Source: Astropecten irregularis (Eukaryota > Echinodermata > Asteroidea > Paxillosida > Astropectinidae). From it: DNA of 64,000 nucleotides. Position 1 is the first letter of the stretch. The number at the start of each line of letters is the position of its first letter. Position numbers and translations under genes: made by a program. This document shows, in pieces, positions 25,953 to 49,882 of the stretch. The notes below the pieces were generated by a model, which saw only the letters and a list, made by a program, of their open reading frames with translations, did not search any database and had not been told where the DNA came from. The stretch spans positions 9,116,541 through 9,180,540 of the forward strand of contig OZ020256.1 of assembly GCA_963971285.1 (NCBI GenBank), written 5' to 3'.

Positions 25953-26492
25953 TTCTGGTAGAACTATAAACTATGCCCTCTCCAAAATATAAGCAAAAAC
26001 TAAAATGTCTCTCTTCCTTTACCGTCAAATTGATTATCTTATGGTCAGACGATTGGGTGTTGCCTCTCTTGGCTATACATGTACGATTTTACTCTTCCTT
26101 TACACACACAAACATTGTTGTGTCAATCGCAATACCGGATACATGCAGATGGTACTCAGGACAATAACTGATACGGTAACTCGCCGCGGGGAGATAGCAA
26201 CTCAATTTTTGTTGCAGGTGGCCCTTATACTCTTCCGTACATAGTGTCCACTCACGCATTTTTATGATGACGCGGGCACGTGGCGCACGATTTATTCCTG
26301 AAACACGGAGCTAATAGAATGTTCGAGTTCTTTTGCTTATGATTAGATTTCCAGCTTCCCAGATTTCTAATCATTGGCGGCCGTGTATAATGTTATTATA
26401 CTGAAGCGACCATCCGCAGTTTCTTGTTTTAATCAAAAGAGGGCGCCACAAAGATTATTCAGAAAAAAATCATGCTACAAGTATAAAAAAAA

Positions 26493-27856
26493 ACTAGAGG
26501 TTGTGTCTGTTGAAAACAGAACACATGGCTTTTCCGCATATGATATAGAATATTTTCATTTTAAAGACACATCGCTGTTGTTGTTTGATTCAGCAAATAA
26601 ATGATATCGTCTTCGGGAAATGATTTCTCGTTTTAATCAAAAGAGGGCGTTATTCAAAACCGTGCGCTCGGAAAAGTTAATCCTGCATTACGGGTGCAGC
26701 CAAGTAAATACATGTAGTGGCAAAATGGGTCCGCCGAGCTCATGAATGAAAGTTAAGCACTCAATTTATTTGAAATAAGAGAGTTGTGAGAGCTATGAAA
26801 ATGAAGGATTGAAGAAATATGGCACTGGACCTCCTGTCCGGTGTCTGGGCTTCCGTTTGTGACCATTTTTGATGCAATTGGGTGAGAAAGTGGGTCTATT
26901 TCAGCCGCTTTGCAGAGGGATGTTTTTTTTTTAATGGCTTCTTTGACTGGAGTGATCCGTACCTTGTTTTAGGGGTGGTCAGCTGAGAATGAGTATAACT
27001 CAAAAATTCAACGGTCACCCTACCATAAAATGAAAAGAAAATGAAAGGTTACATGTTCATCATCATTTTTCTGTGCTACTTCAACAGCTGTGGGAGTTCT
27101 GTATATTTTTTTTACGATTTTTGAAGTTTGAGGATTTATCACTGTTGTCCACGGGAGTTTATTTACTTGGGTGCAACCTTACGTACTGGAAACGGTATAA
27201 GTAGGTTGCTGCGCGTGCGCGGTTGTCTGGTCAAAACACGGCTCAAAATCAGCATTTGCGCTGCTTTGCTGGCAACTATGATAAGGAAGTAAATGAAAAA
27301 AACGGCATATATAATCAAGGCAATCAAACATCTGAACGCGCCTTGTAGTTATGTTGTTTAAATCGTATGTTTTATTTAATGACCAATATTTTCACGTACA
27401 GAGCAACCTACATCGAGAGCATTTCGATTAAGATTTGGTGCTGGTATTTAATGATATATAAAAGGAATTACGTGCAAACTTTGGCAAGTGCAAACGACGT
27501 TTTGTATCACGCAATCGGACATGTGCATTGTATGTTACAAACAGTGAATTGCGTACGTAGGCCTACATGTACACTGTACATAGTGTATGGGGAATTGATC
27601 GAGCTTTATGTTGAGTACAACGACCATGTTCACGTAATCTGTGTACAAAGTGAACGGGCTAGTTTGATAATTAAAAAAATCATATCAAATCAAGTTTTGA
27701 CGTCATGATGACGAAAAGTTTCGGGGAACAACTACCCTATACGGACTTCATTCAGACCAAGTTTGGTTAAGATCGGCTGTTTTAAAGTGACCAAAGTGCC
27801 GCGGACAAAAATCTGTGTACAAAGTCTATGGGCCGCAGAACAAACTCAAAAAAAAT
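26493..27856 (+). mobile_element. Helentron-like element alpha-0 (left end and tail)
   Basis: The left end has the family signature ACTAGA, then a small hairpin (tgtctgttgaaaacagaaca), then GGCTTTTCCGC (26493-26540). The tail (27695-27850: gacgtcatgatgacgaaaag, accaagtttggttaagatc, ctgtgtacaaagtctatggg) is shared with the other alpha copies. The next copy begins immediately. The middle (26600-27650) is not recognised and shows no gene. Confidence 0.55.
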
Positions 27857-28430
27857 ACTAGAGTTTATGGCTGTTTGAAACAGCACATAAGGCTTTTCCG
27901 CATATGATATAAATAGCTTGTCAATCAGAATTGTGTCATTAGAAAGACCTTCCCTAACATTGACATTTGGCGAAAGAATCATGATTGTAGCTTTTCTACT
28001 TTTAAATGACAAGCTACTTCCTGTTTGACCGGAAGTAGAGGTCACAGAGGTCAAGTAATGTGTCACAAAGAATTACCTTGCCTAACAATCACTTTTGGTG
28101 AAAGAATCAACCTAATATCTCAAACCGTTGATTTTTTGTTGATTTTTAAAGATTTTGATTATTAAATTCAAATCGCTGGTCACATGACACCTGATGACGT
28201 CATGATGACGTAATTTACGCGGGCACATCTATGCTATATGGACTTTATTTAGACCAAGTTTGGTTAAGATTGATTGTTTTAAAGTGACCAAAGTGGAGCG
28301 TAGAACAATCGTGTACAAATTCTCATAGACTTGAGGAGAAGAAAAAGAAGAAGAAGAAGAAGAAGAAAAAAAAAAAAATCAGAACAAACGCAATACCTTT
28401 TCCGATTAAAATCGAAAAAGCCAAAAAAAA
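27857..28430 (+). mobile_element. Helentron-like element alpha-1, complete with 3' hairpin
   Basis: Left end: ACTAGAGTTTATGG, hairpin GGCTGTTTGAAACAGC, then GGCTTTTCCGC. Next come one full and one partial 128-bp unit (caaagtgatt/ttaggcaagg region 27940-28120), the shared tail, an (AAG)n microsatellite, and a 3' hairpin with arms CTTTTCCG/CGAAAAAG (28396-28422). The hairpin arm complements the subterminal GGCTTTTCCG of the left end. No flanking duplication. This matches non-autonomous Helentron/HINE or pearl-type architecture; the assignment is inference. Confidence 0.65.
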
Positions 28431-28431
28431 G

Positions 28432-28575
28432 AAAATGTGCGCAGATTTGTGGTGTCCGATGCATCGCACGTCATTTTAATGCATGTGCAAAAGGTGCAAA
28501 CCGTGCAAACATCGCCCATCACAAAATATGCGCAGATATTTATGAATTTGTGATGTACGATGTATCAAAAATCAC
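28432..28575. mobile_element. Fragment related to element K
   Basis: The bases gcgcagatttgtggtgtccg through tatttatgaatttgtgatgt match, in reverse orientation, the interior of element K (32250-32410). It lies between two alpha elements. Confidence 0.6.
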
Positions 28576-28589
28576 AAATGTGACACAAA

Positions 28590-29240
28590 TACAATCATGA
28601 TTCTTTCACAAAATATCAATGTTAGGCGAGATCTTTCTTTGTGACACATTACTTGACCTCTGTGACCTATACTTCCGGTCAAACAGGAAGTAGCTCCTCA
28701 TTTAAAAGTGGTAAGAGCTAGGATCATGATTCTTTCACCAAAATTGAATGTTAGGCAAGGTCTTTCTTTGTGACACATTGCTTGACCTCGGTGACCTTTA
28801 CTTCCGGTCAAACCGGAAGTTGCTCCTCATTTAAAAGTGGTAAGAGCTAGGATCATGATTCTTTCACTAAATATCATTGTTAGGCAAGATCTTTCTTCGT
28901 GACACATTGCTTGACCTCTGTGACCTCTACTTCCGGTCAAACCGGAAGTTGCTCCTCATTTAAAAGTGGTAAGAGCTACGATCATGATTCTTTCACTAAA
29001 TATCAATCTTAGGCGAGATCTTTCTTTGTGACACATTGCTTGACCTCTGTGACCTCTACTTCCGGTCAAACCGGAAGTTGCTCCTCATTTAAAAGTGGTA
29101 AGAGCTACAATCATGATTCTTTCGCCAAATGTCAATGTAAGGGAAGGTCTTTCTAATGACACAATTCTGATTGACAAGCAATTTATATATCATATGCGGA
29201 AAAGCCTTATGTGCTGTTTCAAACAGCCATAAACTCTAGT
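28590..29240 (-). mobile_element. Helentron-like element alpha, reverse orientation, about 4.5 repeat units
   Basis: On the minus strand it starts with ACTAGAGTTTATGGCTG at 29240 and mirrors the first 200 bases of alpha-1. It then runs through four to five 128-bp units, each with gatcatgattctttcac, a DR3-like gtgacctctacttcc block and the acttccggtcaaa motif. The 3' hairpin is not present at 28590. Confidence 0.72.
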
Positions 29241-29249
29241 TTAGATTTT

Positions 29250-29396
29250 GATCGCAACTTCAAAACGAGGCACTTCCACGCATGCGCACTATTCAAAATG
29301 TTAACCCATCCATTGTCGAAGACAATACACGGGTTTACACTTCGACGGTTTTGATCGCAACTTCAAAGCGAGGCACTATCACGCATGCGCACTTTT
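29250..29396. repeat. Direct duplication of about 45 bp
   Basis: gatcgcaacttcaaaacgag plus gcactt...cacgcatgcgcact occurs at 29251 and again at about 29352. Just after it (29416-29450) is a right-end fragment of a K-like element (gtgtcatgtgtcatggcgac). Confidence 0.75.
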
Positions 29397-29484
29397 CGGA
29401 ATGTAAACACGTGTATTGCCCAAAAGTGTCATGTGTCATGGCGACCACCGCATTTCGCACTGGGTAGGTACGAAACCACACTAT

Positions 29485-29612
29485 GGGTGCATTCGTTTAG
29501 CTAACACGGGTCAGCCCTTACTGGGAATGGTTGTGCTATACTGCACAAAACAAGCAGAGAATGGGGACGAGGTTGACTGGTGTCGACCCGGGGGAGCTAA
29601 ACGAATGAACCC
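29485..29612. mobile_element. Miniature inverted-repeat element, GGGTGCATTCG ends
   Basis: Left end GGGTGCATTCGTTTAGCT, right end AGCTAAACGAATGAACCC, 128 bp. A right-end copy of the same family is at 61312-61354 (agctaaacgaatgcaccc). Non-coding. Confidence 0.72.
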
Positions 29613-29631
29613 ATGCGTTAGCATTATAATA

Positions 29632-29726
29632 GGCACGTTCTCACACACCAAAAAAGCGCGACTATTTGGTTCGAGATTTGCAGCGCGACCCAAAAAGTAG
29701 CGCTTTTTGGTGTATGAGAACGTGCC
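29632..29726. mobile_element. Miniature inverted-repeat element, 95 bp, TA target
   Basis: The ends GGCACGTTCTCACACACCAA and the near-perfect complement (ttggtgtatgagaacgtgcc) are flanked by TA on both sides. A decayed relative is at 1339-1422. Confidence 0.8.
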
Positions 29727-30292
29727 TAATGTGTACAAAAAAGGAGACAGCACACATTGCACAATACGCGTAGGGTACGTAGGCCTACGTGATTCCGACA
29801 GTTTGCAACGCGTTGGACAATCACAATGCACGGAATTTGTCGACCCTTTTCAGACGCGCATTTAGTCGACCAATAGCGTTCCGCACTTCCGCTAAAAATA
29901 GCACCGGATCTCAGACATTGCAACCATGCAAACGGGTGTGCGTGTGTGTGCGTGCGTGTACACTACGTGTGTGAGACAACGTTTGTCTAACATCCGGGAA
30001 TTTTGTGACGTCATTAGTGCGGAGCGATTATTATTGGCGCATGGCCAACATAAAACATGCCCGAATAAAACATGCAGAGCCAATACGGGCATTTCCCCCA
30101 CTCCCTCCAACATATGCAAAGCTATAAAATAAAGTATCTGCATATTATATTTACCAATAATATTGCTCGACTACAAAGTTTACAAAGTGTACATGAATTT
30201 GCAGTAGTTAATTGCAAGCAGCGTTTGCGCTTTTGTAGTCTATTTTTGAACATTCGATTTTCAGTTATACAGTACAGTGTACGTCAAAATAT
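29727..30292. other. No gene seen
   Basis: Only short frames and a (GT)n-like patch near 29935-29970. No recognisable SLC6 5' exon was found here. Confidence 0.45.
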
Positions 30293-30860
30293 CAGTGTTG
30301 GAGTCGAGTCCTCAAATCCGAGTACAGAGTAGGCCTACTCCGAGTACTTCAGGGTCCGAGTACTGGGGGGGGGGGGTGGTTACGAGTACATTGCTGGCGA
30401 GTCTGAGTCCAGGGTATTTGAGTACGAGTATTTTATTTTAAGGTCGAGTAGGCCTACAGGGCGGAGTCCAAAGTTGAGTCCACATCTGAGTACATGCACC
30501 AACGCACAGTGCCAAAAATGCACTTAGTTTGAAAAAGATGTTTAAAGTTGGGCATGGACGTTGTGTCACTCTTCTCAGAAATTCTTGTTTTACAAACCTT
30601 GCAAATGACACTGCGCTGCTTACTCCATTTGATACTAAACTCCCAATGATCTTCATATTTCCATTGTATAATTTATCGGAAATCACCAACAAATAATTAT
30701 TAAACAGCAAAAAAAATTAATTTGCACTAAATGGTCGAGTACTCCCAGAATTTGAGTACACTAAGTCAACTACGGGCCAAGTACATTTTATTTTCGAGTA
30801 ATTTTAATCAAGTACGGGCCTAGTATTTGCACTTACTCGAGTACGAGTACTCCAAGACTG
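30293..30860. mobile_element. Non-autonomous hAT element with GAGTAC-rich ends
   Basis: It is flanked by a perfect 8-base duplication CAAAATAT (30285-30292, 30861-30868). The ends are CAGTGTTGGAGTCGAG and, on the complement, CAGTCTTGGAGTACTCG. Both ends are filled with variants of gagtac/gagtcc. The 568-bp copy has no coding capacity. Its right edge is 86 bp before the first recognised SLC6 exon. Confidence 0.88.
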
Positions 30861-30946
30861 CAAAATATTGCTTTTTCATGGAAAAAACCAATTATTTAGG
30901 ATTATGCTTTTACATGTGGATTTATACTTTTGTTCAACTTCAACAG

Positions 30947-31133
30947 AAGGTACCCCAAAATTCCTGTACATCCAATGGTGCAGCGGAAGCTATCACTGAT
31001 GGCGGCAAAGAAACAGAAGAGAAGAGGGATAAATGGGGAAGCCAGCTGGACTTCATTTTGTCTTGCATCGGCTTTGCTGTAGGACTTGGCAATGTGTGGC
31101 GATTTCCATACCTGTGCTATGAAAATGGAGGAG
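30947..31133 (+). CDS. SLC6 transporter exon 1 of those seen: N-terminal tail end and TM1
   Basis: SLC6 proteins sit in the plasma membrane and use Na+ and Cl- gradients to import neurotransmitters or amino acids. This exon follows the acceptor ttcaacttcaacag and ends at GAG/gtaggc in phase 1. It encodes a short cytosolic stretch ([13 protein letters not shown]) and TM1, [20 protein letters not shown], then [14 protein letters not shown] is the family's unwound Na+/substrate site. The glycine in AVGLGN (aspartate in monoamine transporters) marks an amino-acid-type member. By eye, the later exons are nearest to glycine/proline transporters. No start codon or N-terminal exon was found; the reading frame is open upstream but reads into repeat-like sequence. 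The intron that follows is 19 kb and full of transposons. Confidence 0.93.
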
Positions 31134-31841
31134 GTAGGCTAAAATCTTTATAACTGCTTACACTTCTGTTACTACATTTCTACAAAGGTCCATTAATGCC
31201 ACCAATATTAACATGTATAATTATATTGAGACAAGTATAATAATGTGTTGAAAAACTATATTTAGAAACAGGAAGTCTACATTTAGTTCAGCCGAAAAAA
31301 GTGAAGTGCCTGTTAAAAAAGTGAAGTTTATATTTAAAACTATTTTTCGGAAGTATATATTTACAGTACGTTGAGTCGTCATTACGAGATAATTAGAACT
31401 AACAGTAGGGCCTGTTATGTTAAGTCGTAATTGCGAAATAATTACTTGATGATTATACAAAAGAGCCGCATCATCTTTGAGTAATCCCCCATGTAGTGTT
31501 TCTCGTGTTGTTGCATTGTTAATGTTGCGGTATCTTAAATAATCCTTGGAGTTGGTATTGGTATGTGAGTGATTTCATTTCACGGTTTCTGACGGCTAAA
31601 CGAACAAAGTTAATTGACTATTATAATATAGGGTTTCCCGGTCATTTTCGGCAAATGAGCGGACAATTTAAACGCTGCTTCATTCCATTCCGCGTGAAAC
31701 TTCAAGGCACCTCCAAATAGTCATTCGATTTCATTTTATGTGCAGGCGATTAAATAGAATCGCCTTTCAATTAAAAATTCTATTCGAACAGCATTAAAAT
31801 TCGCAACGGCTTTTAATGTTGTTAACACTGTATTACCTCAT
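31134..31841. other. Start of large SLC6 intron, no feature recognised
   Basis: AT-rich intron sequence. No coding or element signature stands out before the repeat at 31842. Confidence 0.5.
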
Positions 31842-32776
31842 CCCGGGCCCGGCCTACCAAAGGCCGTGGGTCCCAACAGCCCCGACACGGTCACCCAATT
31901 CCTCGTATCCATGGAACCTCTGCTCCACAGAGAGGAACAGATATACAATAATAATAACAGTCGATATTCTGCAGGTTTTTATTTTATCTGTATGTTTAAC
32001 TAAAAACATAAACCCTAACCCTATAACCCCAAGCATAGCCCAAACCTTAACACTAACCCTGTCCCTAACCATATAAGTTGATATAACACTAGCCCTAACC
32101 CTATAACCCTAGCCCTAACCCTAGCGTGGTTTCGTATCCAGTTCAAAATGCGGTGGGCGCTATGACACATGACACAATGGGGCGCGCATTACATTACTCA
32201 CAGTGTGAAATTAACTATGTATATCATGCGCAAGACGGCAAAGGGTGGCGCAGGAGGAACATCGAACATCAGAAATATCTTCGCACGTGATGTTTATGTG
32301 ATTGTCATACATCACAAATTCACAAATATCTGCAGCTTCGTTATGCAATGTTTGCACGTGCATTATAATGACGTATAACAATACATCGTGCAACACAAAT
32401 CTGCAAATAGTGGCATGATTTTTTCTGATTTTTTCAGCACCGTCAGCTGCCGCGAACAGCGCAATAACGGTATGCAGTTAGTGGTTGTTATTCACCCTTA
32501 ATGTCATGTGTCATGGCGGCCACAAAAATGCGTAGGCCTTAAGGAACCCTAACCCGGACCCTAACCCTAACACTATATGGCATAATATTGTTATGATCAG
32601 CGCTGAAAAAAATGCGCATAAGCCTATGGGATTTTTGTTGGAAAAAGTCTGAAAAACTAAAAACTGAAGGGCCCGATCACGCCATATGCAACTGATTAAT
32701 TAATGAAAAATAAACAACAGTAAAAACCAGTGGTTCAGTAATTTATGTATAGGCATGTACCTATGTTCACGCCTAA
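31842..32776. repeat. Repeat family Y, copy 1, with degenerate CCCTAA tracts
   Basis: It starts cccgggcccggcctaccaaa and includes cagccccgacacggtcaccc, two blocks of degenerate CCCTAA (32010-32130, 32545-32575), and ends gaagggcccgatcac ... ggttcagtaattt. A second copy (46188-46290 plus 49551-49882) in the same intron shares all of these blocks. Element K is inserted between the two CCCTAA blocks in this copy. The element type is unknown. Confidence 0.75.
32153..32524. mobile_element. Element K: inverted-repeat element with 8-bp duplication
   Basis: The ends are GTGGGCGCTATGACACATGA and the complement side tcatgtgtcatggcggccac. A perfect 8-base duplication AAAATGCG (32145-32152, 32525-32532) flanks it. 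Copy 2 of the host repeat lacks it. Fragments of the family occur at 28432-28575 and 29416-29450. Non-coding; hAT- or Mutator-like by duplication length. Confidence 0.82.
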
Positions 32777-32932
32777 ACATGCAGCCTGAAATAACTCAAT
32801 TTGTTACGCAGCGTCAACAGACTGACGTTCACGAAATAAAAACTATTTGGTTCCCTCGACCGAAATTATTTAAAAACAAAGGCTATAAAGGGCTAGGGAC
32901 TCTATTCGTACTACAGACATAAATAACTCGAT

Positions 32933-33153
32933 GGGCCTTTACTAAATAAGGCTTGAGGCTAGGCTTGGGATTTATTTTGCCACTACCATTTTGTGTCCTA
33001 AGTGAAATGAAGGGCTTGAAATACATGGCGAAGCTGGAGCTTTTCTTCAGCTTCATCATGTGGCACAATCCCTTCGTTTCATTTTGTGGGCTTCAAATGG
33101 CGGTAGGGAAATAAGTCCCAAGCCTAGCCTCAAGCCAAATTTCGTAAAGGCCC
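32933..33153. mobile_element. Foldback miniature element, GGGCCTTTAC ends
   Basis: The arms are about 80 bases: GGGCCTTTACTAAATAAGGC with gaggctaggcttggga on the left, and their complement ending GTAAAGGCCC on the right. 221 bp, non-coding. The duplication was not resolved. Confidence 0.78.
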
Positions 33154-33767
33154 TATGATTCGTACCTAGACGACTCGAGCGCCTGACCGCGAGCGCCCTC
33201 TCTTGGTGAATACTAGAGAGTCAAAAGTCTCCCATACTGGGTGAGTCCACAAGAAGACGGAGATTGGCGATGTTTTTAAAAATAAAATAATGACACTCAA
33301 AAGTTCAGTAAAGCATAATCTAACAAGCACTCTCTCCTGCTTATTAGAAATAAAGGAGAATGGAACAAATTGTTCATTCCTAGGAGGACTTATGTCTACT
33401 TTAATAAAGCTATTCATTGTTCAAGTTGTCCATGGAATATATACATGTACATGTACTTGACAAACAAATTATATAAAGTAATCTTACTACCCTTTGCTAC
33501 TTACTCATATGTTTAGATTCAGTCAAGCCCTGTGTTCGTTTTCCATTAAAACGTATGATATCACTTTTATTTTGATCTATATTCAATATTGTATTGCTGT
33601 GATCTCCACATACATTAGAATGAAACAAGAACAGAAAAACAGACAGACAACCCGACTGGGAGATAAAATAGAATAAAATAAAATTAATTCATAAAAAGGA
33701 AAGATTATCTAGGTGTACAGTGTACGCCGTGACTTGAAAACTAGGAAATTTGACAGAGTAAAAAAAA
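33154..33767. other. Intron sequence, no feature recognised
   Basis: AT-rich, with a short tacatgtacatgt run near 33440. Confidence 0.45.
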
Positions 33768-35042
33768 ACCTAGATATTGTGTCTGTTAAACACAGAACAC
33801 ATGGCTTTTCCGTTTCATAATATATAAAATTGTCCAAACATTATACACACAAAAACATTTGATTAAGATATTAAGCTTTATAATTTTGAAGAGTGCACCT
33901 TTAATCTGAAGTCACTTGACTTGATCACGTTTGTGTCACAGGAAAAGACCTTGCCTAACATTTACTTTTGGCGAAAGAATCATGATCCTAGCTCTTACCA
34001 CTTTTGAATAAAGAACCTCTTCCTGTTTGACCGGAAGTAGAGGTCACGGAGGTCAAGCAATGTGCCACAAAGAATGACGTTGCCTAACATTGAGTTTTGG
34101 TGAAAGAATCATGATCACAGCTCTTAACACTTTTAAATGAGGAGCTACTTCCTATTTGACCGGAATTAGAGGTCACAGAGGTCAAGTTATGTGTCACATT
34201 GAAATACCTTGCCTAACATTCACTTTTGGTGAAAGAATCATGATCCTAGCTCTTAATACTTTTAAATGAGGAGGTACTTCCTGTTTGACCGGAAGTAGAG
34301 GTCACAGAGGTCAAGCAATGTGTCACAAATGAAAGACCTTGCCTAACATTGACTTTTGGTGAACGAATCATGATCATAGCTCTTACTACTTTTAAATGAG
34401 GAGCTACTTCCTGTTTGACCGGAAGTAGAGGTCACACAGTTCAAGCAATGTGTGACAAATGAAAGATCTTGCTTAACATTGACTTTTGGTGAAAGAATCA
34501 TGATCATAGCTCTTTCCACTTTTAAATGAGGAGCTACTTCCTGTTTGACCGGAAGTAGAGGTCAAAGAGGTCAAGTAATGTGTCACAATGAAAGCCCCTG
34601 CCTTACATTGACCTTTGGTGACAGAATCATGATCATAGCTCTTACCACTTTTAAATGAGGAGCTACTTCATGTTTGACCGGAAGTAGATAAATAATCATA
34701 AGAAATCAGGGAATGACGTCATGATGACGTCATTGCAAATTTTCGATATAACACTTCCCGATTTAGATACATACCAAGTTTCAACTCAATCGGACTTAGG
34801 GTTCGTTCATAAATGATGTATGAAGTTTTCCCCTTTAAGACACTGTCACGTGACACCTGATGACGTTATGATGACGAAAAGTTTCGGCGCACATTAACCC
34901 TATAAGGACTTTGTTTTGACCAAGTTTGGTTAAAATCGGCAGTTTAAAAAGTGACAAAAGTGCCACCGAGAATGCACATGTGCAAAGTCTATAGGAATTC
35001 CAACGACAAGAAGAAGAAAGTAAAAGAAAAATCAGAACAAAA
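33768..35042 (+). mobile_element. Helentron-like element alpha-2 with six tandem 128-bp units
   Basis: The left end (cctagatattg, hairpin around tgtctgttaaacacagaaca, GGCTTTTCCG) is followed by units starting near 33960, 34088, 34216, 34347, 34476 and 34605. Each unit has ttttggtgaaagaatcatga, ttttaaatgaggagctactt, cctgtttgaccggaagtaga, ggtcacagaggtcaag. Then come the shared tail and an AAG-rich stretch. It has no hairpin of its own; the next left end starts at once. Confidence 0.72.
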
Positions 35043-36018
35043 ACTAGACATCTTTGGCTGTTGCAAACAGCACATAGGGCTTTTCCGCATATGATATTAT
35101 AAATTGAACTCCAAATATAAACTGTTATACAAAGAAAGGAATCCCATAATGGACAAGTTGAAAAAAGAATCATGATCCTAGATCTAACCACTTTGGAATG
35201 AGGAGCTACTTTCTGTTTGACCGGAAGTAGAGGTCACAGAGGTCAAGCATTGTGTCACAAAGAAAGACCTTGCCTAACATTCACTTTTGATGAAGGAATC
35301 ATGATCCTAGCTCTTACCACTTTTAAATGAGAAGCTACTTCCGGTTTGACCGGAAGTAGAGGTTATAGAGGTCAAGTAATGTGTCACAATGAAAGCCCCT
35401 GCCTTACATTGACCTTTGGTGACAGAATCATGATCATAGCTCTTACCACTTTTAAATGAGGAGCTACTTCCTGTTTGACCGGAAGTAGAGGTCACAGGGG
35501 TAAACCTATGTATCACAAAGAAAGACCTTGCCTAACATTCACTTTTGGTGAAAGAATCATGATCCTAGCTCTTACCACCTTTAAATGAGGAGCTACTTCT
35601 TGTTTGACCTGAAGTAGAGGTCACAGAGGTCAATCAGTGTGTCACAAAGAAAGACCCTGCCTTACAATCACTTTTGGTGAAAGAATCAACTTAATATCTC
35701 AAACCGTTGATTTTTGAAGATTTTGATTATTAAATTCAAATCGCTGGTCACATGACACCTGATGACGTCATCATGGCGAAAAGTTCCGGGAGACAACTAT
35801 CCTATATGGACTTCCTTCAGACCAAGTTTGGTTATTAAGATTGGCAGTTTCAAAGTTACCAAAGTATGGGTATAGAAAACCCCTGTGTAAAGTCTATCGG
35901 ATTTTGGCAGAAGAAGAAGAAGAGGAGGAAGAAGGAAAAAAAAAACAGAACAAAAACAAAGGCTTTTCGCTTCCGCGAAAAAGCCAACAATACCTTTTCC
36001 GTTGAACACGGAAAAGCC
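35043..36018 (+). mobile_element. Helentron-like element alpha-3 ending in two hairpins
   Basis: Left end ACTAGACATCTTTGG with hairpin GGCTGTTGCAAACAGC and GGCTTTTCCGC. About four units (35160-35680), tail with tgatgacgtcatcatggcga, (AAG)n, then two successive hairpins: 35961-35985 (arms GGCTTTTCGC / GCGAAAAAGCC) and 35992-36018 (arms CTTTTCCG / CGGAAAAG), followed by AATAATAA. The two stacked 3' ends suggest repeated end-on insertion. Confidence 0.72.
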
Positions 36019-37691: not shown

Positions 37692-39900
37692 ACATTACAT
37701 GGTGTCAGAGTGGATTAAAACCCCAAATAAGAGTGCACAATGGAAGGATTGAAACCCCCAGTGCCTTGAGACTAGATAGCACCAATTTAGCAGAGGAATG
37801 GCGGAGATGGCGACAACGTTTTGAGCTGTATATGACCGCCAGTGGCATGGAAAAGAAGGCAGCCAGAGTACAGAGTAGCTGCTTACTACATGTAATAGGT
37901 GAGGATGCTCTTTAGATATACAATACCTTCTCATTTAGTGAACAAGAGAACAACGAAAGTCTGGAGACACTGCTGAAAAAGTTCACTGAACACTTTGAGC
38001 CACAGAAAAATGTCACATATGAACGACATATGTTTAATACACGAATACAGAATGCAGATGAACCAGTAGACCAGTCCATAACAGATCTCCGACTCAAAGC
38101 AAAAAAGTGTGAATTTGGGCCCTTGTGTGATAGTCTCATTAAAGACAGAATAGTGGTTGGAATCACTAGTGATGCAGTCAGAGGAAGACTTCTGCGCATT
38201 GGAGACCTAACACTCGACAAAGCAATTGAAGTATGTCATGCAGCAGAAGCATCTAGCAAACAGCTAGACAGCATAAAGCCCAATGTGAATGAAAACAAAG
38301 ATCTGCACGCTATGAGAGCATCCAAACAACAGCCACAACACCAGACAAAGAGAGAAATCAAAGACTGTATGCATTGTGGCCGAAATCATGCACCAAGAAA
38401 CTGTCCTTCCTATGGCAAAGAATGTAAGAAGTGTGGAAAACAAAACCACTTCGCAAACAAATGTTTCAGTGATTCTGCAGCGAAGAGTGCATCCAGCAGA
38501 CATGGCAAACGGCCTTAATCTCGAAAAGTGCATGATGTACATGAAGAATCAGACAGTGACTCATCCGAAACTGAGTTCTACATGGATGCAGTCCATACAA
38601 ATGGGACAGAATGGTCAGTAAACCTCAAGCTTCAAGGAAGTGAAAAAGAGAAAACTGTCACGTTCAAGCTTGACACAGGAGCACAGTGCAACGCAATACC
38701 AGCTGACATCCACAAAAAATGTGCACCAAAGTGAGCAAATCAAAGGCAAAGCTCGTATCATACTCTGGACATACCATCAAAACCAGTGGCAAATGTACCA
38801 TGGTGTGTGAACACAAGAAGAAATACCATGCGTTGGAGTTCCAAGTCATTGACGAGAATGTCAAACCGGTGTTGGGACTTTGAGCGTGTGAACAGCTACG
38901 CCTGATAAAACGTGTAGAGACAATGGAAAACAACTGTCCATAAATTGTGGAGAAATACGCAGATGTATTTGAAGGCCTTGGAAAACTTGCGGGTGAGCAC
39001 CACATAAAGCTGAAACCAGATGCACAGCCAGTTGTACACCCGCCAAGAAAAGTTCCTGTTGCAATAAGACCGAAGGTACATCAGGAACTAGACAGAATGG
39101 AAAAACTTGGTGTCATAGTCAAGGTAGAAGAGCCATGCCCATGGGTGAGCAGTATGGTCACAGTAGTCAAACCAGAAAAAGACAAAATCAGAATCTGCCT
39201 TGATCCAAAGCACCTCAATGATGCAATACAGAGGGAACAATACCCAATGAAAACCATAGAGGAGGTAGTAACAAACCTTCCTCAAGCAAAGGTATTCAGC
39301 ACCTTAGATGCCAGCAGTGGGTATTGGCAGATGCAACTTGACGACGCAAGTTCCAAGTTGTGTACCTTCAACAGTCCGTTCGGAAGGTACCGCTACACCA
39401 GACTACCCTTCGGTATCAAGTCAGCACCTAAAACATTTCAGAGAGTAATGACGCAGATGTTTGATGACATCGAAGGAACTGAGGTCATCATGGACGACAT
39501 CCTAGTGTGGGGTGTTGATCAGAAACAACATGATGAACGCCTTGAGAGAGTGCTGAAGCGAGCTCGAGAACAAAACTTGAAGCTGATCCCAAAGAAATGT
39601 AAGTTTGGTGTGAGTGAAGTGAAATACATTGGCCACACACTCACAGCTACTGGACTGAAACCAGATGAGAAAAAAGTCAGAGCAGTGCAAGAAATGCACA
39701 AGCCACACAATAAGAAAGAGCTACAGCAATTTCTCGGAATGGTGAACTACCTTGGAAAGTTCGTGCCGCAGTTAAGCAACGTCACAAAGCCCTTGATACA
39801 ACTTCTAGAGAAAAATGCAGAATGGCAGTGGCACACAGAGCATGACCACAGCTTTTAAAAAATGCAGCGCCTAGTAACAGAAGCACCTGTGTTGCAGTAC

Positions 39901-42282
39901 TCTCTTAATGTAAAAGAGTGAAAAACCACTCTAAAAGAGTGAAAAACCACTCTAAAAGAGTGAAATAACCACTCTTACAAGGAGCCATATGGCGGACAAC
40001 TCTTTTAAGAGTGAAAAAAAGAGTGGTCATAATTCACTCCTAAAAAGAGTGAAATTTCACCTTTTAAAGAGTGACATAAACCACTCTTTAAAAAGAGTGA
40101 AAGAGTGACTATCACTCTAAAAAGAGTGACAAAAAGAGTGACAAGAGTGCTTTGTAAAAAACACTCTTTCAAGGAGTGAACTTGAAAAGAGTGAAATTTG
40201 TACTTAGTGAAGACTATATACTCTCGGTGAGCATGTCAAATGTAACACTGTCAAATTAATTGCAATGCTGCAGCTGTTGAAAGACGAAACGATTCAAGTT
40301 TCAACATGAATGACAACCTAAAAACAATACATATCGACTTCAAGTAAAAGTTATTGTACAAGACTACTCAAATAAATTAAACAGAATACAATTTCAAATC
40401 ATGATAAAAGTATTTTATTCTCCAAAAAAGATTATAAAAAGTACTCCAAGGGAAAATCCTATGCAAACATAAACATTTTAAATTCATCAATTATTTCATC
40501 TTATTGTCTTAAATTTCGAGACAAAATTAAGAGTCACTCTGGTCATCCTAATTGACTTTTGAAAGTTGAAAAATTCATTACTTAATTTAATATTTCATCT
40601 CATTGTCTTAAATTTCGAGGTCACACTCTTGTCACCCTAATTGATTTGTGAAAGTATTTGTTCTGTTGTTTTGTTGCGACTGTACAGCAGGGGTGTGACT
40701 GGAGGTATAGGCCTACTAACTGCAAAATCCACGAAATAATCGGCAGAAGGTTTGAGGGTTGTCAAAAGCCCAAGAGCAACACAAGCCCGATGGTTAATAT
40801 TCTCATGTGCAGCTGCACAAAGACATTCCTCACTATTCAATTGTTCAAAATTATCTTGTATAAATTTAAGCCTCAGGGATTCCAGATTTCAAAAGAGATT
40901 GTCTTAAAAGTTCTGAAATGAGGAGAAACACAACTTGATACAAAAGTGAAATTAGTGAAAATTCTGACCCCAAAATCTCTGAAATCAAGAGAGTTCTTAA
41001 CACTGAAAGAAGCCTGAAATCAGGGGCCAATTTCATGGCGCTGCTAAGCACAAAAAAGCTTACCCCTCAATTTGGATCATGTCTCCTACCATTTTCGAGT
41101 ACAGTTCTCTGACAGTTCTCATTATTAAAACTCCTAGTTTGTATATGATGTCCTCAGAAAAGTTGAAGTAGGTTTGCAGCGGCTTTGCCAAATGTACATG
41201 TACACCACAATATGTAGTGAACCTTGAAGAGGCGGTCAAAAGCCTCAAGAAGAGAACCTCCTACAGAGATGGTCATACTCATAGCATCCGTGATGATGAA
41301 GTACTCACTGTCCATATCACCGAGGGCCAGTATGAAGGGTTGGGTGTAGGTTGCCTCCTTCGTTGTTGCGAACTGCTCAACATCTGTCCCATCAGCCTTG
41401 TAATGTATGGGGAAACCAAAAATAATAAAGATTATTAGGCCTATTATTAACAAATTTGCTTACAATGTTTATCATAATCATGCCAAGTGCTTAATTCGTG
41501 CAATTGTATATTTATATGCACTTGTAATAGTGTTATTTACTCTATTCTTCGTGACTATTATAGGCCCTGTGGCTGCCAAATCCCGTATATGGCGAAGCTA
41601 GGCAGGCCCGACTCTTGTGTGTTCTGCACTACAGCTGCCTACGCTACGCCGGTATACAGGCCGAACGTTAGGCCTAACGTTAGACCAAGCCTACCGTTAC
41701 GTACGAGTACGACGATCGAGCAGCCTACAATTTACAAAATATAGGCATAATGACACGAATAACTACATTATAACAAACTTACGTACGGAAAGCAATCGCT
41801 AAATCCACTAACAAAAAGTTGCATGTACCTTGACATTTCTGCTGGATTTTTTTCAACCGTTGCAACCTCAAACACCGGGCCAAGCCTCTTCCAAACGTTG
41901 TCCATTCTCAGTTGCAGTACGCATATACGTTAACGTGTGTGCCGCAGCTGTCGCCTACGCCGTACAAAAACAATGGCGGCCGTTGAAACTTTTTCAGATC
42001 ATGAGCGCGTACGTAATATGCAAAGTAGTACTGACTACGAAAACGTTTGTGATTGGCTGCTAGTGGTAAACAAAAATCACTCTTAAAAGAGTGACTACCG
42101 AAACACTCCACGTTAAGAGTGGTATATACGAGCGCTCCATAAAGAGTGATTCAACTTTTAAGACGAAACTCAAACCGGGTGTGTTTTTTCCACTCGACTA
42201 AGAGTGAAGTTCACTTTTAAAAGAGTGAATTCAATATCACTCTGCAGACGGAGTGAGTTTTTCACTCTTTTACATTAAGAGA
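39901..42282. mobile_element. Element N: 2.4-kb DNA transposon with GAGTG subterminal arrays
   Basis: The terminal repeats TCTCTTAATGTAAAAGAGTG (39901) and its exact complement (ending 42282) are inserted in element J. The flanks are GTAC on both sides, so the duplication is GTAC, or TA if the ends start one base further out. About 270 bases at the left and 220 at the right are packed with GAGTG/CACTC words in both orientations. The interior carries a decayed gene-like sequence on the minus strand (see 41090-41905). Confidence 0.88.
41090..41905 (-). pseudogene. Decayed gene inside element N; not identified
   Basis: Minus strand. A first block begins with ATG at 41905 and reads MDNVWKRLGPVFEVATVEKN then PAEMS, ending at a GTACAT site (41829). 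A second block (41396-41219) reads TDVEQFATTKEATYTQPFIL, ALGDMDSEYFIITDAMSMTI and LLEAFDRLFKVHYI. After a frameshift near 41205 it continues KPLQTYFNFSEDIIYKLG. The order 'PF.L.LG ... AFD.LFKV.Y ... LQ.FFNF.ED..Y' recalls the C-terminal end of uncharacterised proteins that I remember as common in cnidarian and fish genomes; that memory is unchecked. The splice phases of the two blocks as drawn do not match, so an exon may be missing or the copy has decayed. Confidence 0.5.
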
Positions 42283-44528
42283 GTACTTTGATGTGACAAA
42301 ACCAGTCACAGTGAGCGTAGACGCATCAAGCACGGGTGTGGGTGCCGTTCTGTTACAGGAGGGACATCCTGTAGCATTCGCATCGAAAGCTTTCACAGAA
42401 ACACAAACCAGATACGCGCAGATAGAAAAGGAAATAGCAGCAGTGGTGTTTGGTTGTGAGAGGTTCCACCAGTATCTGTACGGCAAAGATTTTGTGATAG
42501 AGAATGATCACAAACCATTAGAGGCGATCATGAAAAAGTCACTCGCCTCAGCACCTTCACGACTGCAGAGAATGCTGCTAAACCTACAAAAATACAGCTT
42601 CACCTTGACATACAAGAAAGGAAAAGAACTGTATATCGCCGATGCATTGAGCAGAAATCATCTGTCTGACATAGACACAGACTACGAGATACCGGTGTAC
42701 ATGGTGTCATGTTTGCCAATGTCTAAAGAGAGACTTCATGAACTGAAACATGAAACAGCCACAGACAAAACTCTCTCCAAACTCAAGAAAGTTGTTCAGA
42801 ATGGATGGCCAAACAACAAATCTGAACTCGATCCTGAAGTGAAGCCATTTTGGGATTACAGAGATGAAATCCTTGTAGAAGAAGAGCTGGTGTTCAAAAA
42901 TGATCGTGTCATAATACCAGCAAGCTTAAGAAAGAAGATGTTGGCCAAGCTGCATCAGAGCCATCAAGGAGTAGAGAAGACCAAACGTCTTGCGAGAGAC
43001 ATAATGTTTTGGCCTGGCATGACATCACAGATAGCTGAGACTGTAAGCAGGTGTCCAACCTGTCTCACCCACAAGAAGCAAAACCAGAAAGAGCCGATGA
43101 TTGGTCACCAGATTCCAACAAGGCCATGGCAGAAAGTTGGGACAGATCTGTTTAAATTTGACTCCCATCAGTACCTGATAATAGTTGACTATTATTCGGG
43201 TTATTTTGAGATCAACAAGCTGACCAGTTCCAAGAGTGCATCAGTGATCACATACTTCAAACAACAGTTCGCGAGACATGGAATACCCAGTGAAGTATTA
43301 TCTGACAATGGCCCGCAATATGCTTCTGCAGAGTTCAAAGCATTCAGCAAATCGTATGGTTTCGATCACACTACATCATCACCGAAGTACCCTCAGTCCA
43401 ATGGGAAAGCAGAAAAGGCAGTCCAGATCGCAAAGAACTTACTCAAGAAAGCCAAGGAAGATGGCCAGTATCCCCATCTCGCGCTACTGGACTATCGCAA
43501 TACGCCTCGCGATGGTCTCCCCTCCCCAGTTCAACTCCTCATGGGTCGCCGAACAACGACACAGCTGCCTACATCCGAAAAACTCCTCAAACCCAAGACA
43601 CACCCAGGAATCACCAAGACGCTGAAACACAAGCAAACTGTACAGAAACAGTACTATGACAGAGGAACAAAACCGCTCAAACCCCTGAAGCCTGGAGCCA
43701 ATGTCCGTATCAGAAACAACTCATCATGGAAAACAGCCACAGTAGTCGGACAACATGAGAAGCCTCGATCATACATTGTGGAGAGCGATGGACAACACTA
43801 CCGACGAAATCGCAGAGACTTGCTCAAGACTCCTGAAACTCTCAAGACTCATGAGCGTCGCACACCGAATGCACATCCCGACCAGAAGACACAAGGCCGC
43901 TATCCCAAACGCACTCATAAACCAGTCATTAAACTTGATTTGTGATTATACACAAAGGGCAGAATAATCCCTGTATAGTCACTTTAGTGACAGGGTAGTC
44001 CACCTCTGTTCACTCAAGCAAAGTTCCATTTTTTAAGTATATTTTGTTGTTGTTGTTTTTTCGAAAAACAAAGAAGCAGAAGAAATGCTTTCGTTAACTT
44101 GTTTATTTGTCACTTAAAAAAAAAAAAAAAGTTAATTCTTGACAGGCTTTACACAAACCACATTTGCCGGATTGGATTATCATGCTGGGTGCAATTGGAC
44201 TTGCTAAAAAGGATTTGTGCCTCACAGAAACTCTTTCATAAGAACTAATGAACTGATTGGATCAGAAACCTGGACACTTTTAAGAATTGATACTCACAGG
44301 ACACAGAACTCTGGAACTCTTTGATAATTCATACTTTGTGTTTATTTTGCTTTTCTTCAAAAAAGGGGAGATGTAATGAATGAGCTATAAAGTATATAGC
44401 GCCATCTATCGGCAGTAGCCTGCATGACCTGACCTGACCTGAATAAACCAAGACCAGCCATCTTGAATGACATGAAGCTATGTGTCAACATGTCAATAAT
44501 ATAGTTTGTAACAAATACAAACATTACA

Positions 44529-46187
44529 GAAGGCAGCTAAAATCGCTCCTATTCATAAATCAGGAAACAAGCAATTTGTTAATAACTATAGACCAATTTC
44601 TCTTCTTCCCCAGGTTTCAAAGGTATTTGAAAAGATCCTTTGTGAGAAGATAGTTAGTCATGTCCAACCAGCCGTAGCCGAGCAGCAGCATGGTTTTGTC
44701 TCTGGCAGAGATTGTTCCACTAATCTTACATCATTGTTGCAGGAGGCATACCATGCTGTTGATTGTCGAGAGCAGTTGGATGTGGTCTATACTGATTTCT
44801 CCAAGGCCTTTGATCGTGTCAATCATAACTTATTACTGTATAAACTATCACCTTATAATATTCATCCTAGTGTCTTGCAGTTATTGTGTAATGATTTAAA
44901 TTGTAGAATGCATAGAGTTGTTCTTGACGGTCACTATTCCAATTGGAATGCTGTTCCCTCTGGAGTCCCCCAGAGCTCCATATTGGGTCCTTTGCTTTTT
45001 TCATTGTTTGTTAACGATATTCCTGAATGCCTGAGTAATAATTGTTTGTTGTTTGCTGATGATCTAAAGATTTTTAGGAAGGTTAATTCTCCAGCTGATG
45101 CTTCCTTGTTACAGGATGACCTGGGCAGACTTGTGTCCTGGTCTTCAACTTGGCGTCTCTCTCTCAATAGTAATAAATGTAGTGTCTTGTCTATCTCACT
45201 TAAGAAGAAACCCATCAACTTTGAGTACACATTAGGTAATGATGTTCTTAAACGTGTTGCAGTACAAAAAGATCTTGGAATTTTTATTGACAGTAAACTA
45301 ACCTTTGTACCCCATGTCGACCCAATCATTAAGAAAGCTAATCGTATGTGTGGTTTATTATGGAGGAATTTACGTACTATTTATTGTTCGATTATTAGGC
45401 CCCATATTGTACAGTGATTTTTAATTCTATTTCAATGTATCAAGCAAGAAGGATAGAAAGAGTGCAGAAACGCTACCTTTTATTCATTCATAGAATGCTA
45501 AATGGCTATGTCAATTTCAATGACCTTGATTATCTTGATTTATGTGCACTTTATAGACTCCCCACTATTGAAAATAGAAGACTTGTATTTTCTTATATAA
45601 GCATTTTCATAATAATTTCTCCAACACAGATGCAAACCCTTACTGTTTATATGCTCCTGTGCGGCGGACAAGGCATGCCAACGAACACATCTTCCACATC
45701 CCACGTAGCCGAGTTGAAGTGACGAAGCGTGGCTTTATTTCCAGGATTTCATCCACTTACAACAGGCTACATGGGATGTGTGATGTGTTCGGTGCACCTT
45801 CTGTCAGTTCATTTCGTCGCCAGGTGCTTCGAGCTATCTCATTTATTATCTTGTGCAGTATTTCTAATTTATATAGATTGTATATACAGATATAAGTATT
45901 TATATATGTATTTATTGTTTGTTTTTGTTTATTTAATTATTTATTATTGCATTCATTTTTTTATATTATTATTTATTTATCTGTTTGTTATTTATTTCTT
46001 TATTTATTTATTTAACTACATTTATTTATTTATTTATTTGTTCGTATCTGTGCTTCATTACTTTTTTAATGTAATATTTAAATTTGTTGTTTTGTTTATA
46101 ATTTTGCTTGTTTACCTCTCACTGTAATTGGCGGTTACTCTGCTGTTGGATGAGATGAATAAATAAATAAATAAATAAATAAATAAA
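44529..46187 (+). mobile_element. LINE (Jockey/CR1-like), reverse transcriptase to 3' tail
   Basis: The frame from 44530 reads KAAKIAPIHKSGNKQFVNNY, RPISLLPQVSKVFEKILCEK, QLDVVYTDFSKAFDRVNHNL, SGVPQSSILGPLLFSLFVND and the catalytic box NNCLLFADDLKIFRKVN, to a stop at 45417. The C-terminal region continues in two other frames (QARRIERVQKRYLLFIHRML near 45430; EHIFHIPRSRVEVTKRGFIS near 45680), so at least two frameshifts are present. The 3' end is T-rich and closes with (AAAT)n at 46160-46187. Its 5' part is cut by Gypsy element J. Confidence 0.9.
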
Positions 46188-46292
46188 TCCCGGCCCCGGC
46201 CCGCCAAAGGCCGCGGTCCCAATAGCCCCGACACGGTCACCCAATTCCTCATATCTTCTGCTCCACAGAGAGGATGATACAATACAATAATA

Positions 46293-49200
46293 ACTAGACA
46301 TTTAAGTGTTCGTGGACGAACACGGAGCTGTTCCGACTTATTTGATTAGCTTTATAAGTTCCAATGACGTCATGATGACGTCACGGTCATTTACAAACCA
46401 GCGTGCATCTAAAGTTTCTAACAAAGCTTTTGTGAAAAGAATCATTACCATAGCTTTTGTCCTTCTCAAGATATGCTGCAAACATAAATTATGCCTTTTG
46501 ATGACGTCATAATGACGTCACAGTTAATTTCACAACAGCATGCAAATCTACAGGGTCTAACAAAGCTTTTACAAAAAGAACCAATACCGTAGCACTTACC
46601 GTTCTCGAGATATACTGCTATAAACCAAAAATTACCTTTTTTAATGACGTCATGATGACGTCACTGTAAATTGCGGGGCAGCATGCACAACAACATGATG
46701 TAACAAAGCTTTTACAAAAAGAATCATTACCGTAGCACTTTCCGTTCTTGAGATATGCTGCTAATAATAAAATCAGCATTTTTGATGACGTCATGATGAC
46801 GTCATGGTCATTTCCATAATTTATCAAACTAACCATGAACTGACTAAATAATCAAAAGAAATAAGCATGTAAACTTGGGTCAGAAAGTGAGCCTCATAAC
46901 ACATCCTCTAGACGATGAACTTTACAGTACTTTCAACATCTTACTACATGTGCTTTCATGCCCTTGAATGCTAACACATCTTGTTACCGTGGCAACAGTG
47001 CATGGTCATGCACTTGCTGGCCTACCTCTTACATAACAGCACATTCCTCAGACTCTGATCATTTGAGATAAACAATCCCAGCTGCAAATGGGGTTAACTG
47101 TATACAGTAATACAATACATGTACATGTACATGTACACACTACACACACATAATAGGCCTATGCTCTGACGTAGGGCTTAAAAACAGCCAATTTTATGAC
47201 GTCATGATGACGTCACGGCCATTTTCGTGGCAGCATGCACAACTACAGGATGTAACAAAGCTTTTGGAAAAAGAATTATTTTCATAGCATTTTGGGTTCT
47301 CGAGATACGCTGCTAACAAAATTGACTAATTAAATATGCAAATGAGCTGTCACGTGCCTAATTAATGAAGAATTTTTACAACTCAGTGCCAGTATGATCC
47401 TTAGCTTATAAGCTTTCATATGATACCTCATCTAAGCTGATCAGAAGAAGCTAAGAAGAAATAAGCTGTTAACAAGCTTAGAGGGTGATAAAGAATAATA
47501 ATAATAATAACTAGACATTTAAGTGTTCGTGAACGAACACGGAGCTGTTCCGACTTATTTAATCAGCTCTAAAAGCTCCGATGACGTCATGGTCATTTAC
47601 AAAGCAGCATGCATCTGCAGTTTCTAACAAAGCTTTTGTGAAAAGAATCATTACCATAGCTTTTGTCATTCTCAAGATATGCTGCAATCATAAATTATGC
47701 CTTTTGATGACGTCATAATGACGTCACAGTTAATTTCACAACAGCATGCAAATCTACAGGGTCTAACAAAGCTTTTACAAAAAGAACCAATACCGCAGCA
47801 CTTACCGTTCTCGAGATATACTGCTATAAATCCAAAAATTACCTTTTTTGATGACGTCATGATGACGTCACTGTAAATTTAGGGGCAGCATGCACAACTA
47901 CATGATGTAACAAAGCTTTTACAAAAAGAATCATTACCGTAGCACTTACCGTTCTCCAGATATGCTCCTAATAATAAAATCAGCATTTTTGATGACGTCA
48001 TGATGACGTCACGGTAAATTTCTTGGCAGCATGCACAACTACATTATGCTACTAAGCCTTTGCAAAAAGAATCATATTCATAGCCTTTGTCGTTCTCAAG
48101 ATATGCTGCTAACAAAATTGACTAATTAAATATGCAAATGAGCTGTCACGTGCCTAATTAATGAGGAATTTTTACAACTGAGTGCCAGTATGATCCTTAG
48201 CTTATAAGCTTTCATATGATACCTCATCTAAGCTGATCAGAAGAAGCTAAGAAGAGATAAGCTGTTAACAAGCTTAGAGGGTGATAAAGAATAATAATAA
48301 TAACTAGACATTTAAGTGTTCGTGGACGAACACAGAGCTGTTCCGACTTATTAGGTCAGCTTTATAAGCTCCGATGACGTCATGGTGACGTCACTGTCAT
48401 TTCCGAAGCAGCATGCATATCTAGAGGATCTAACAAAGCTTTTGCAAAAAGAATCATTACCATAGCATTTTTCGTTCTCGAGATATGCTGCAAACATTAA
48501 AATCAGCTTTTTTGATGACGTCATGATGACGTCACGCTAAATTTCGTGGCAGCATGCACAACTACAGGATATTACGAAGCTTTTGCAAAAAGAATCATTA
48601 CCATATCATTTGTCCTTCTCGAGATATGCTGCAAACAAAATTCAGCCTTTTCATGACGTCATGATGACGTCACGGTCAATTTCATGGAACGGAGACCTCC
48701 TCTAACAGTTTCGGCCGGATGCAGCCTTTGTCACTTGTCACAATTTAAGTTAAAATGCTTGGTGGCGCTATAACTGTGCTTCTATCGACCCCGATCTACC
48801 TGTACCTTCGTATCTCAAGCCAAGGTCACGAGACGTCACACAAAGCGGGAGTTTATTCATTCTTTTTTAGGTATAAGGCCTAAAATGGGTTTTTTTTTAC
48901 AATCAGTTTTTAATGTTTCACGTAGCAATTCCATCAGTAACTCCAATCTCAATGTCACATTCTCCGACAAATGATTTTTTAGTAAATTTTTGAATTAACC
49001 GTAGAAAAAAAATCAACAAATTACTTATCTTTAAATAAGAAGCACAAATTTCGATTTCGATGACGTCATGATGACTTCATGATGACGTCACGGTCATTTT
49101 CGTGGCAGCATGCACAACTACATGATATAACCAAGCTTTTGCAAAAAAAATCATGTCCGTAGCATTTGTCGTTCTCGAGATATGCTGCGAACAAAGTTTA

Positions 49201-49550
49201 CTAATTAAATATTCAAATGACTGTAACTTGGCTAATTAATTAAGAATTTGTACAACTCTCTTCCAGAATGATCCTTAGCTTATAAGCTTTCAGAAGATAC
49301 CTCATCTAAGCTGATCGGAAGAAGCTTATAAGAGATAAACAGTAAACAAAATCTGGACGATAAAGAATAATAATAGTGAAAAATTCGAACGAAAACAATA
49401 CCTGTTCCGACATCGGCAATGTCGGAACAGCTAATAATAATAAAAATCTAAGCAAAAACTAAACCTGTTCCGACATCCGAAATGTCGGAACAGCTAAAAA
49501 TCTAAGCAAAAACTAAACCTGTTCCGACATCCGAAATGTCGGAACAGCTA
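46293..49550 (+). mobile_element. Helentron-like concatemer beta: three elements head to tail
   Basis: Three left ends (46293, 47510, 48303) each read ACTAGACATTTAAGTGTTCG, then form a hairpin with GACGAACAC, then AGCTGTTCCGAC. Each element holds tandem units of about 143 bp (tgacgtcatgatgacgtcac, ggcagcatgcacaactac, taacaaagcttttgcaaaaa, gttctcgagatatgctgc). Each ends with the same tail (gactaattaaatatgcaaat ... aagcttagagggtgataaag) and AATAATAA. Only the last carries the 3' hairpin, and that three times (49402-49433, 49464-49495, 49519-49550; arms CTGTTCCGACAT / ATGTCGGAACAG). The hairpin arm complements the left-end AGCTGTTCCGAC. No flanking duplication. Helitron/Helentron-like (HINE or pearl-type) is the best fit; no Rep/helicase is present. 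Confidence 0.75.
46361..49090. promoter_or_regulatory. Array of paired CRE-type palindromes inside the beta units
   Basis: TGACGTCATGATGACGTCA or close variants occur at about 46364, 46502, 46644, 46785, 47197, 47709, 47850, 47991, 48373, 48511, 48654 and 49060, with a single TGACGTCA near 47580. This gives about 25 perfect TGACGTCA octamers in 2.7 kb. TGACGTCA is the consensus CREB/ATF site. Whether any is used is unknown; the arrangement is a property of the repeat unit. Confidence 0.5.
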
Positions 49551-49882
49551 ATAACAGTCGATATTCTAAAGGTTTTTAATTTGTCTGTATGTTTACCCCA
49601 ACCCTAACCCTAACTCTAGCCCTAACGCTATAACCCTATAACCCTAAGCCTAACCCGGACCCCAACCCTAAACATTACCCTATTATGGCATAATTGTTAT
49701 GGTCAGCGCTGAAAAAATGCGCATAAGCCTATGGTGTTTTTGTTAAAAAAAAAAAACAATAATAAAAACTGAAGGGCCCGATCACTCCATATGGAACTGA
49801 TTAATCAATGAAAAATAAACAATTGTAAAAACCAGCGGTTCAGTAATTGATGTGTCATGTACGCGTTTGTTCACGCCTACAT

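Follow-up and report, generated by a model that had tools for sequence, protein, structure and literature searches.

The closest described relatives of the elements reported here are non-autonomous Helentrons of the HINE/DINE-1 type. In the HINEs of mites, subterminal inverted repeats (subTIRs) of 12-15 nt lie at distances of about 2-4 nt (5' side) and about 38-60 nt (3' side) from the termini, the subTIRs are themselves palindromic, and a palindrome is found about 8-35 nt from the 3' end (PMC4067079). These elements use T-rich targets, modification of the target is not evident and the number of flanking Ts is variable (PMC4067079). Helitron2-type elements of Fusarium carry the 3' subTIR 20-40 nt from the end, and self-insertion has been proposed as the origin of multiple 5' termini in Fusarium Helitrons (PMC5148889). 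Arrays ascribed to aberrant rolling-circle copying are said to combine many 5' ends with a single 3' end (PMC12628747, citing Xiong et al. 2016), and truncated, tandemized and mutually inserted Helitron parts are known from the oyster (PMC12628747). Dimers of Drosophila transposons have been explained mainly by a preference for certain insertion sites (McGurk and Barbash, via PMC12628747), and the reference list of PMC4067079 contains the title of a study in which a Helitron-like element from Lepidoptera disrupts (GAAA)n microsatellites.

Here, we describe an array at 46293-49550 in a 64-kb stretch of the Astropecten irregularis genome (contig OZ020256.1; the window in what follows), in which three non-autonomous Helentron-type elements (HINEs) probably sit one inside the other. 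Elements of this kind are known, and the apparent nesting is unusually easy to read.

Ends, hairpins and polarity of the array

Three near-identical ends lie at 46293, 47510 and 48303, with an (AAT)n tract before each. A search for TAACTAGACATTTAAGTGTTCG with up to three mismatches gave three matches in the window (46291, 47508 and 48301; 0.00 expected by chance), all of them perfect and each after (AAT)n, in agreement with the left ends named in the preliminary description of this DNA. This 22-mer is the 3'-terminal sequence of the elements in the orientation derived below, and its occurrences in the window are limited to the three element ends. The first end is preceded by genomic AATAATAA, the other two by GATAAAG(AAT)n. 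Three stacked hairpins with a stem of 12 bp and a loop of 5 nt are found at 49402-49430, 49465-49493 and 49519-49547. As single-stranded DNA they fold with -14.9, -14.2 and -14.2 kcal/mol (z -8.57, -10.07 and -10.39), and for each of the three none of 200 shuffles was as stable. At the internal junctions (47510 and 48303) the hairpin is absent; as had been noticed before, it is lacking from the first two units and present three times after the last (49402-49547), and the array has three ends of the one kind for three hairpins. CTGTTCCGAC, searched with up to one mismatch, has nine matches against a mean of 2.72 expected by chance. All nine are perfect and within the array, one behind each of the three left ends and two in each of the three hairpins. 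A perfect 12-nt match, AGCTGTTCCGAC, on the 3' side of all three units is complementary to the outer hairpin arm, as was claimed earlier for the left-end sequence, and forms a subterminal inverted repeat pair with the hairpin arms.

The polarity given earlier, with 3' hairpins and left ends, has to be reversed when set against the HINE layout of PMC4067079. On the minus strand the order is a palindromic 5' hairpin AGCTGTTCCGACAT, a short A+T-rich segment containing the (ATT)n microsatellite, tandem repeats, the 3' subTIR GTCGGAACAGCT, the palindrome GTGTTCGTCCACGAACAC and CTAG/TT. Since the HINE layout fits this minus-strand reading, the hairpins are taken as 5' ends and the former left ends as 3' termini. 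The palindromic subTIR hairpin is located 0-3 nt from the 5' terminus, as in HINEs, the distance being ambiguous because of a TAA overlap of the flanks. The 3' subTIR GTCGGAACAGCT lies 32-34 nt from the 3' terminus, slightly less than the approximate distance in mite HINEs and within the 20-40 nt of Fusarium Helitron2-type elements. The palindrome GTGTTCGTCCACGAACAC, 12-14 nt from the 3' end, has the position expected of a HINE palindrome and folds weakly (z -2.44, -1.87 and -2.14).

All three elements, which we call A, B and C, are on the minus strand and contain tandem repeats of 141-144 bp. The outer element A (46292-47510) has its 3' terminus CTAG/TT at 46292-46297, the palindrome at 46306-46323 and the 3' subTIR at 46326-46337; its body of tandem repeats holds a unique filler (about 46820-47180) and is interrupted at the (AAT)n tract (GATAAAG plus (AAT)n, 47494-47510), where B begins. 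The middle element B (47509-48303) consists of a 3' terminus, a 3' subTIR and a body without filler between the tandem repeats, and runs up to the start of C in a GATAAAG and (AAT)n tract of its own (48290-48303). The inner element C (48302-49432) is uninterrupted, with 3' terminus, body, GATAAAG, (AAT)3 and hairpin 1 (49402-49430) as its 5' end. Its own filler (about 48687-49055) differs from that of A; both are about 370 bp long. A and B break exactly at the (AAT)n that C has unbroken, and after each break follows the 3' end of another element. Past C's hairpin the order is TAATAATAATAAAAATCT with hairpin 2, TAAAAATCT with hairpin 3 and then genomic TAATAACAG. The 5' module at 49432-49494, made of an (AAT)n remnant, an A-rich segment and hairpin 2 (49465-49493), probably belongs to B, and the module at 49495-49549, with an A-rich segment and hairpin 3 (49519-49547) as the outermost 5' end, probably to A; both are again on the minus strand.

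On structure, the elements fit non-autonomous Helentrons of the HINE/DINE-1 type, and the Helentron-like ends claimed earlier are borne out by the subTIR pair, the palindromic hairpin, the 3' palindrome and the TT target. An autonomous element encoding Rep and helicase, which the preliminary description suggested looking for, was not found among the 17 listed window ORFs of at least 150 aa, none of which has a Pfam match to either protein. Eleven of the 17 match Pfam (reverse transcriptase, RNase H, integrase, Pao peptidase, aspartyl protease, DUF5641, DUF6451 and endonuclease) and are read as retroelements; the endonuclease at 21085-21669 could, by its domain alone, also be of the kind carried by Helentrons. 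Exact-pattern scans gave no copies in viral contigs for the hairpin, 3'-end and repeat patterns and none in prokaryote contigs for the hairpin pattern, and they say little because exact patterns were run against collections of non-animal genomes. Since neither Rep or helicase nor further copies were found, membership in the HINEs is a structural assignment; that no solo copy and no autonomous partner were seen also weighs against the nesting account given below. Rfam gave no match at gathering score over 26000-50500.

Several retroelement pieces lie elsewhere in the window. BEL/Pao-type pieces at 9731-14150 and 16930-18423 carry Peptidase_A17, DUF5641 and an integrase zinc-binding domain. A Gypsy-type pol is split into RVT_1 (38944-39858) and RNase H plus integrase (42257-43945) by an insertion of about 2.4 kb (39911-42275) with related inverted ends rich in AAAGAGTGA/TCACTCTTT.

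The host intron and its empty site

The array and a paralogous empty site lie inside one intron, about 19 kb long, of an SLC6-type transporter gene. Its exon at 31004-31135 matches positions 1-37 of Pfam SNF, and the one that starts at 50169 matches positions 38-82. Together with the retroelements, this gene points to animal DNA. The empty site (31840-32073, plus strand), which has the target tract AATAATAATAA at 31947-31957, was found by self-comparison of the window; it joins both flanks of the array and differs by one 3-nt unit. On the plus strand the left genomic flank (46187-46293) ends in AATAATAA and aligns to 31840-31954, and the right flank (49549-49670) begins with TAATAACAG and aligns to 31952-32073. 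Against this one empty site the flanks overlap by TAA, and a duplication and a variation of the tract both fit. Of the check proposed earlier, an empty site without duplication, the empty site has thus been found, and the shared TAA at the join suits either explanation. The empty site also carries other small gaps near the insertion point.

It is possible to read the element as AGCTG...CTAGTT, and then neither the empty site nor the join in a second family (see below) needs a target duplication. At the first site a duplication of TAA, or a tract that changed by one unit, is possible as well. A fixed 3-bp duplication is disfavoured, because the join in the second family has two extra bases. On the minus strand all three 3' ends read CTAG/TTATT, a T-rich target with the TT dinucleotide of HINEs.

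The empty locus and the filled one remain similar at 32545-32775 and 49646-49879 (83%, with a gap of about 400 bp in step). Since it extends past the insertion site, the host sequence is itself duplicated or a dispersed repeat.

The palindrome TGACGTCA, the CRE/ATF-type site, occurs 33 times in the window, where a first-order Markov model expects a mean of 0.95 per 64 kb. Twenty-five of these sites lie inside the nested elements (46294-49548) and five of the other eight in sequence of the second family. The element repeats would spread such sites across the SLC6 intron.

Probable nested insertion and its rivals

As we picture the nesting, A would have entered a genomic (ATT)n tract ((AAT)n on the plus strand), B would have entered the (ATT)n tract that A itself carries, 54 nt in from the 5' end of A, and C the corresponding tract of B, 63 nt in from the 5' end of B, each presumably moved by a Helentron Rep-helicase supplied in trans. 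Every newcomer would separate the 5' hairpin of its host from the body of its host, and the hairpins would therefore stack in mirrored order. The pairing would be last in, first out, with hairpin 1 from C, hairpin 2 from B and hairpin 3 from A. We infer this order of insertion and the preference for the tract. The earlier suggestion of repeated insertion at an existing 3' end came near the mark, the likely target being (AAT)n inside the element, by the hairpin end. Whole elements that landed next to an existing end should have left a hairpin between units; none is there, and we reject this reading.

The units are not copies of one unit: in the module alignments A and B are close and C differs. 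Body modules agree at 144/147 positions for A-B, 122/143 for A-C and 121/143 for B-C (8 gap columns in each of the latter two), and hairpin modules at 53/53 for 2-3 and 46/52 for both 1-2 and 1-3 (2 gap columns each). With the pairing given above, the divergence of the bodies parallels that of the hairpins, with 98% identity in the body and 100% in the hairpin for the close pair and 85% and 88% for the distant ones. This agreement supports the pairing and is not proof of it, because with three units chance alone would put the odd hairpin beside the odd body in one case out of three. A, B and C cannot be told apart by their 3'-end modules (65, 66 and 65 of 72). The tract comprises 10 of the 1129 bases of C, and both internal breaks fall in it. 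Post hoc, this has a probability of 8e-5 if insertion is uniform and of 0.009 if insertion is confined to A/T runs of at least 8, which make up 103 bases, and so a preference for A/T-rich targets weakens the argument from the site. The repeats of A and of B also contain a 9-nt TAATAATAA tract, which the insertions left unused.

A second family, with 129-bp repeats and the subTIR GGCTTTTCCG, is built in the same way and occupies about 26492-36018. The loose pattern AACTAGANNT is uninformative by itself (73 matches, a mean of 64.4 expected), and to count as a 3' end a CTAGA had to stand at a distance of about 34 nt from an exact GGCTTTTCCG; a match to GGCTTTTCCG with one mismatch, at 3476, was left out. 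There are five such ends in the window (26494, 27858, 33770, 35044 and, on the other strand, about 29238), three of which pair with a hairpin. At 33768-36018 two 3' ends (33770 and 35044) are followed by two hairpins, the same geometry as in the first family. The outer element (33768-35043, minus strand) has a 3' terminus and a body of 129-bp repeats and is interrupted at 35043. The inner element (35042-35985, minus strand) is complete, with its 3' terminus at 35042-35047, 129-bp repeats and the 5' hairpin at 35961-35985. The 5' hairpin module that follows on the same strand (35986-36018, hairpin 35993-36018) is likely that of the outer element. Joined around the inner element, the outer halves align with the copy at 28300-28422 at 78/93 positions, with 34 gap columns, 26 of which form one block in a GAA-rich tract, and with two extra bases at the join. 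The 3' palindromes of this family fold weakly (z -2.40 and -1.10). A third copy with both ends lies at 27856-28422 on the minus strand (3' end 27858, hairpin 28397-28422), and a body fragment without either end (27698-27857) adjoins it at 27858. The end at 26494 has no paired hairpin, and a copy in opposite orientation (28585-29240) has a CTAG 3' end, stops inside the 129-bp repeats (about 28590) and has no 5' hairpin. These incomplete copies tell us that ends do get lost, and they lend the nesting model no support.

The preliminary description had offered a rolling-circle concatemer or read-through past an end, in which a single transposition would produce several units joined together. Bypassed termination is reported to give tandem Helitron arrays (PMC4067079, PMC12628747), but the published arrays have many 5' ends and a single 3' end (PMC12628747), while the array here has three of each. 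Unit C, moreover, is of a different subfamily from A and B, and neither a multimer nor a truncated array predicts equal counts of both ends in mirrored order. The 3'-5' junction that such a history should leave, a hairpin and then a CTAGA end within 40 nt, has no match for the first family on either strand; one loose match for the second family, at 39786, is inside a reverse transcriptase (retroelement) ORF. With no 3'-5' junctions and equal numbers of both ends we reject this explanation as very improbable. The main rival is unequal recombination or slippage between (AAT)n tracts after one insertion, with the body duplicated between the flanking and internal tracts and the hairpin separately between the internal tract and the right flank. 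All junctions do lie in (AAT)n, and hairpin modules 2 and 3 lie side by side and are identical over 53 nt, which simple tandem duplication would produce as well. This history would nevertheless need two unconnected series of events that arrive at three and three by coincidence, the parallel divergence of bodies and hairpins speaks against it, and the two-and-two case of the second family breaks in a different, A-rich sequence. We regard recombination as unlikely.

PIF/Harbinger elements make 3-bp TWA duplications, and MITEs of this type have terminal inverted repeats at both ends. A cut-and-paste MITE of such a kind, with a 3-bp TAA target duplication and nested likewise, would account for the TAA that both flanks share against the empty site, but an (AAT)n tract can vary by three by itself. 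The termini here are not mutual inverted repeats (CTAGACATTT differs from the complement of GGAACAGC), the inverted repeat is placed asymmetrically, at 32-34 nt from the terminus on one side, and the join in the second family has two extra bases and not three. For want of a terminal inverted repeat we set the MITE aside, and the chance that it is correct seems slight indeed.

Comparison with known elements

The three elements resemble the HINE/DINE-1-like elements of PMC4067079 in their 12-nt subTIRs, in a 5' subTIR that is palindromic as in mite HINEs and in a separate 3' palindrome, and further in a core of microsatellite and tandem repeats, a T-rich target, the lack of coding sequence and perhaps also the absence of a clear target duplication. 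They differ in that the 3' subTIR lies 32-34 nt from the terminus, compared with about 38-60 in mites, in the CTAG end, which the paper gives for the proto-Helentron of Phytophthora, and in that several copies are probably nested. Canonical Helitrons have a 5' TC, a 3' CTRR with a hairpin about 11 nt upstream, and insert between A and T. The 3' CTAG with its palindrome 12-14 nt upstream agrees with this, but the 5' end is (TT)AGCTG and not TC, and the subTIRs are long. Cg_HINE of the Pacific oyster (PMC7492417) follows the same plan of a left flank with subTIR, a complementary inverted repeat, a microsatellite, satellite-like tandem repeats, a right flank with subTIR and palindrome, and TT targets. 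Its microsatellites have mostly 4-nt units (GTCY-like in several) in place of (ATT)n, a comparison drawn from the description. The sea urchin Tsp and bivalve pearl elements are cited as DINE-1-like in PMC4067079 and are likened here by that citation.

In the titles and abstract openings of the literature searched, which took in few subscription papers, the mirrored geometry was not found, and we do not claim its absence from print. One might speculate, with considerable reserve, that the elements carry their own landing pad, in the microsatellite next to the 5' end, for regular self-insertion and that this is a general source of elements with multiple 5' termini in fungi and plants. If this were true, self-nesting would stack 5' ends into composite elements with several origins, and such composites could then transpose as the stretch bounded by the outermost 5' end and the first 3' end. 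Histories of self-insertion and of rolling-circle concatemers are easily confused, and if the pattern is general, end counts and mirror order would make a simple sequence test between the two.

The Fusarium FoHeli elements share with our array short, stacked 5' termini; there the first 31-85 nt are repeated, which has been put down to self-insertion (PMC5148889). FoHeli elements have several 5' termini and a single 3' terminus, whereas here the numbers are equal and the order is mirrored. The nested intermediate postulated by the FoHeli authors seems to have survived in the array, where both sets of ends are still in place and in mirrored order, and apparently did so in two families within 16 kb.
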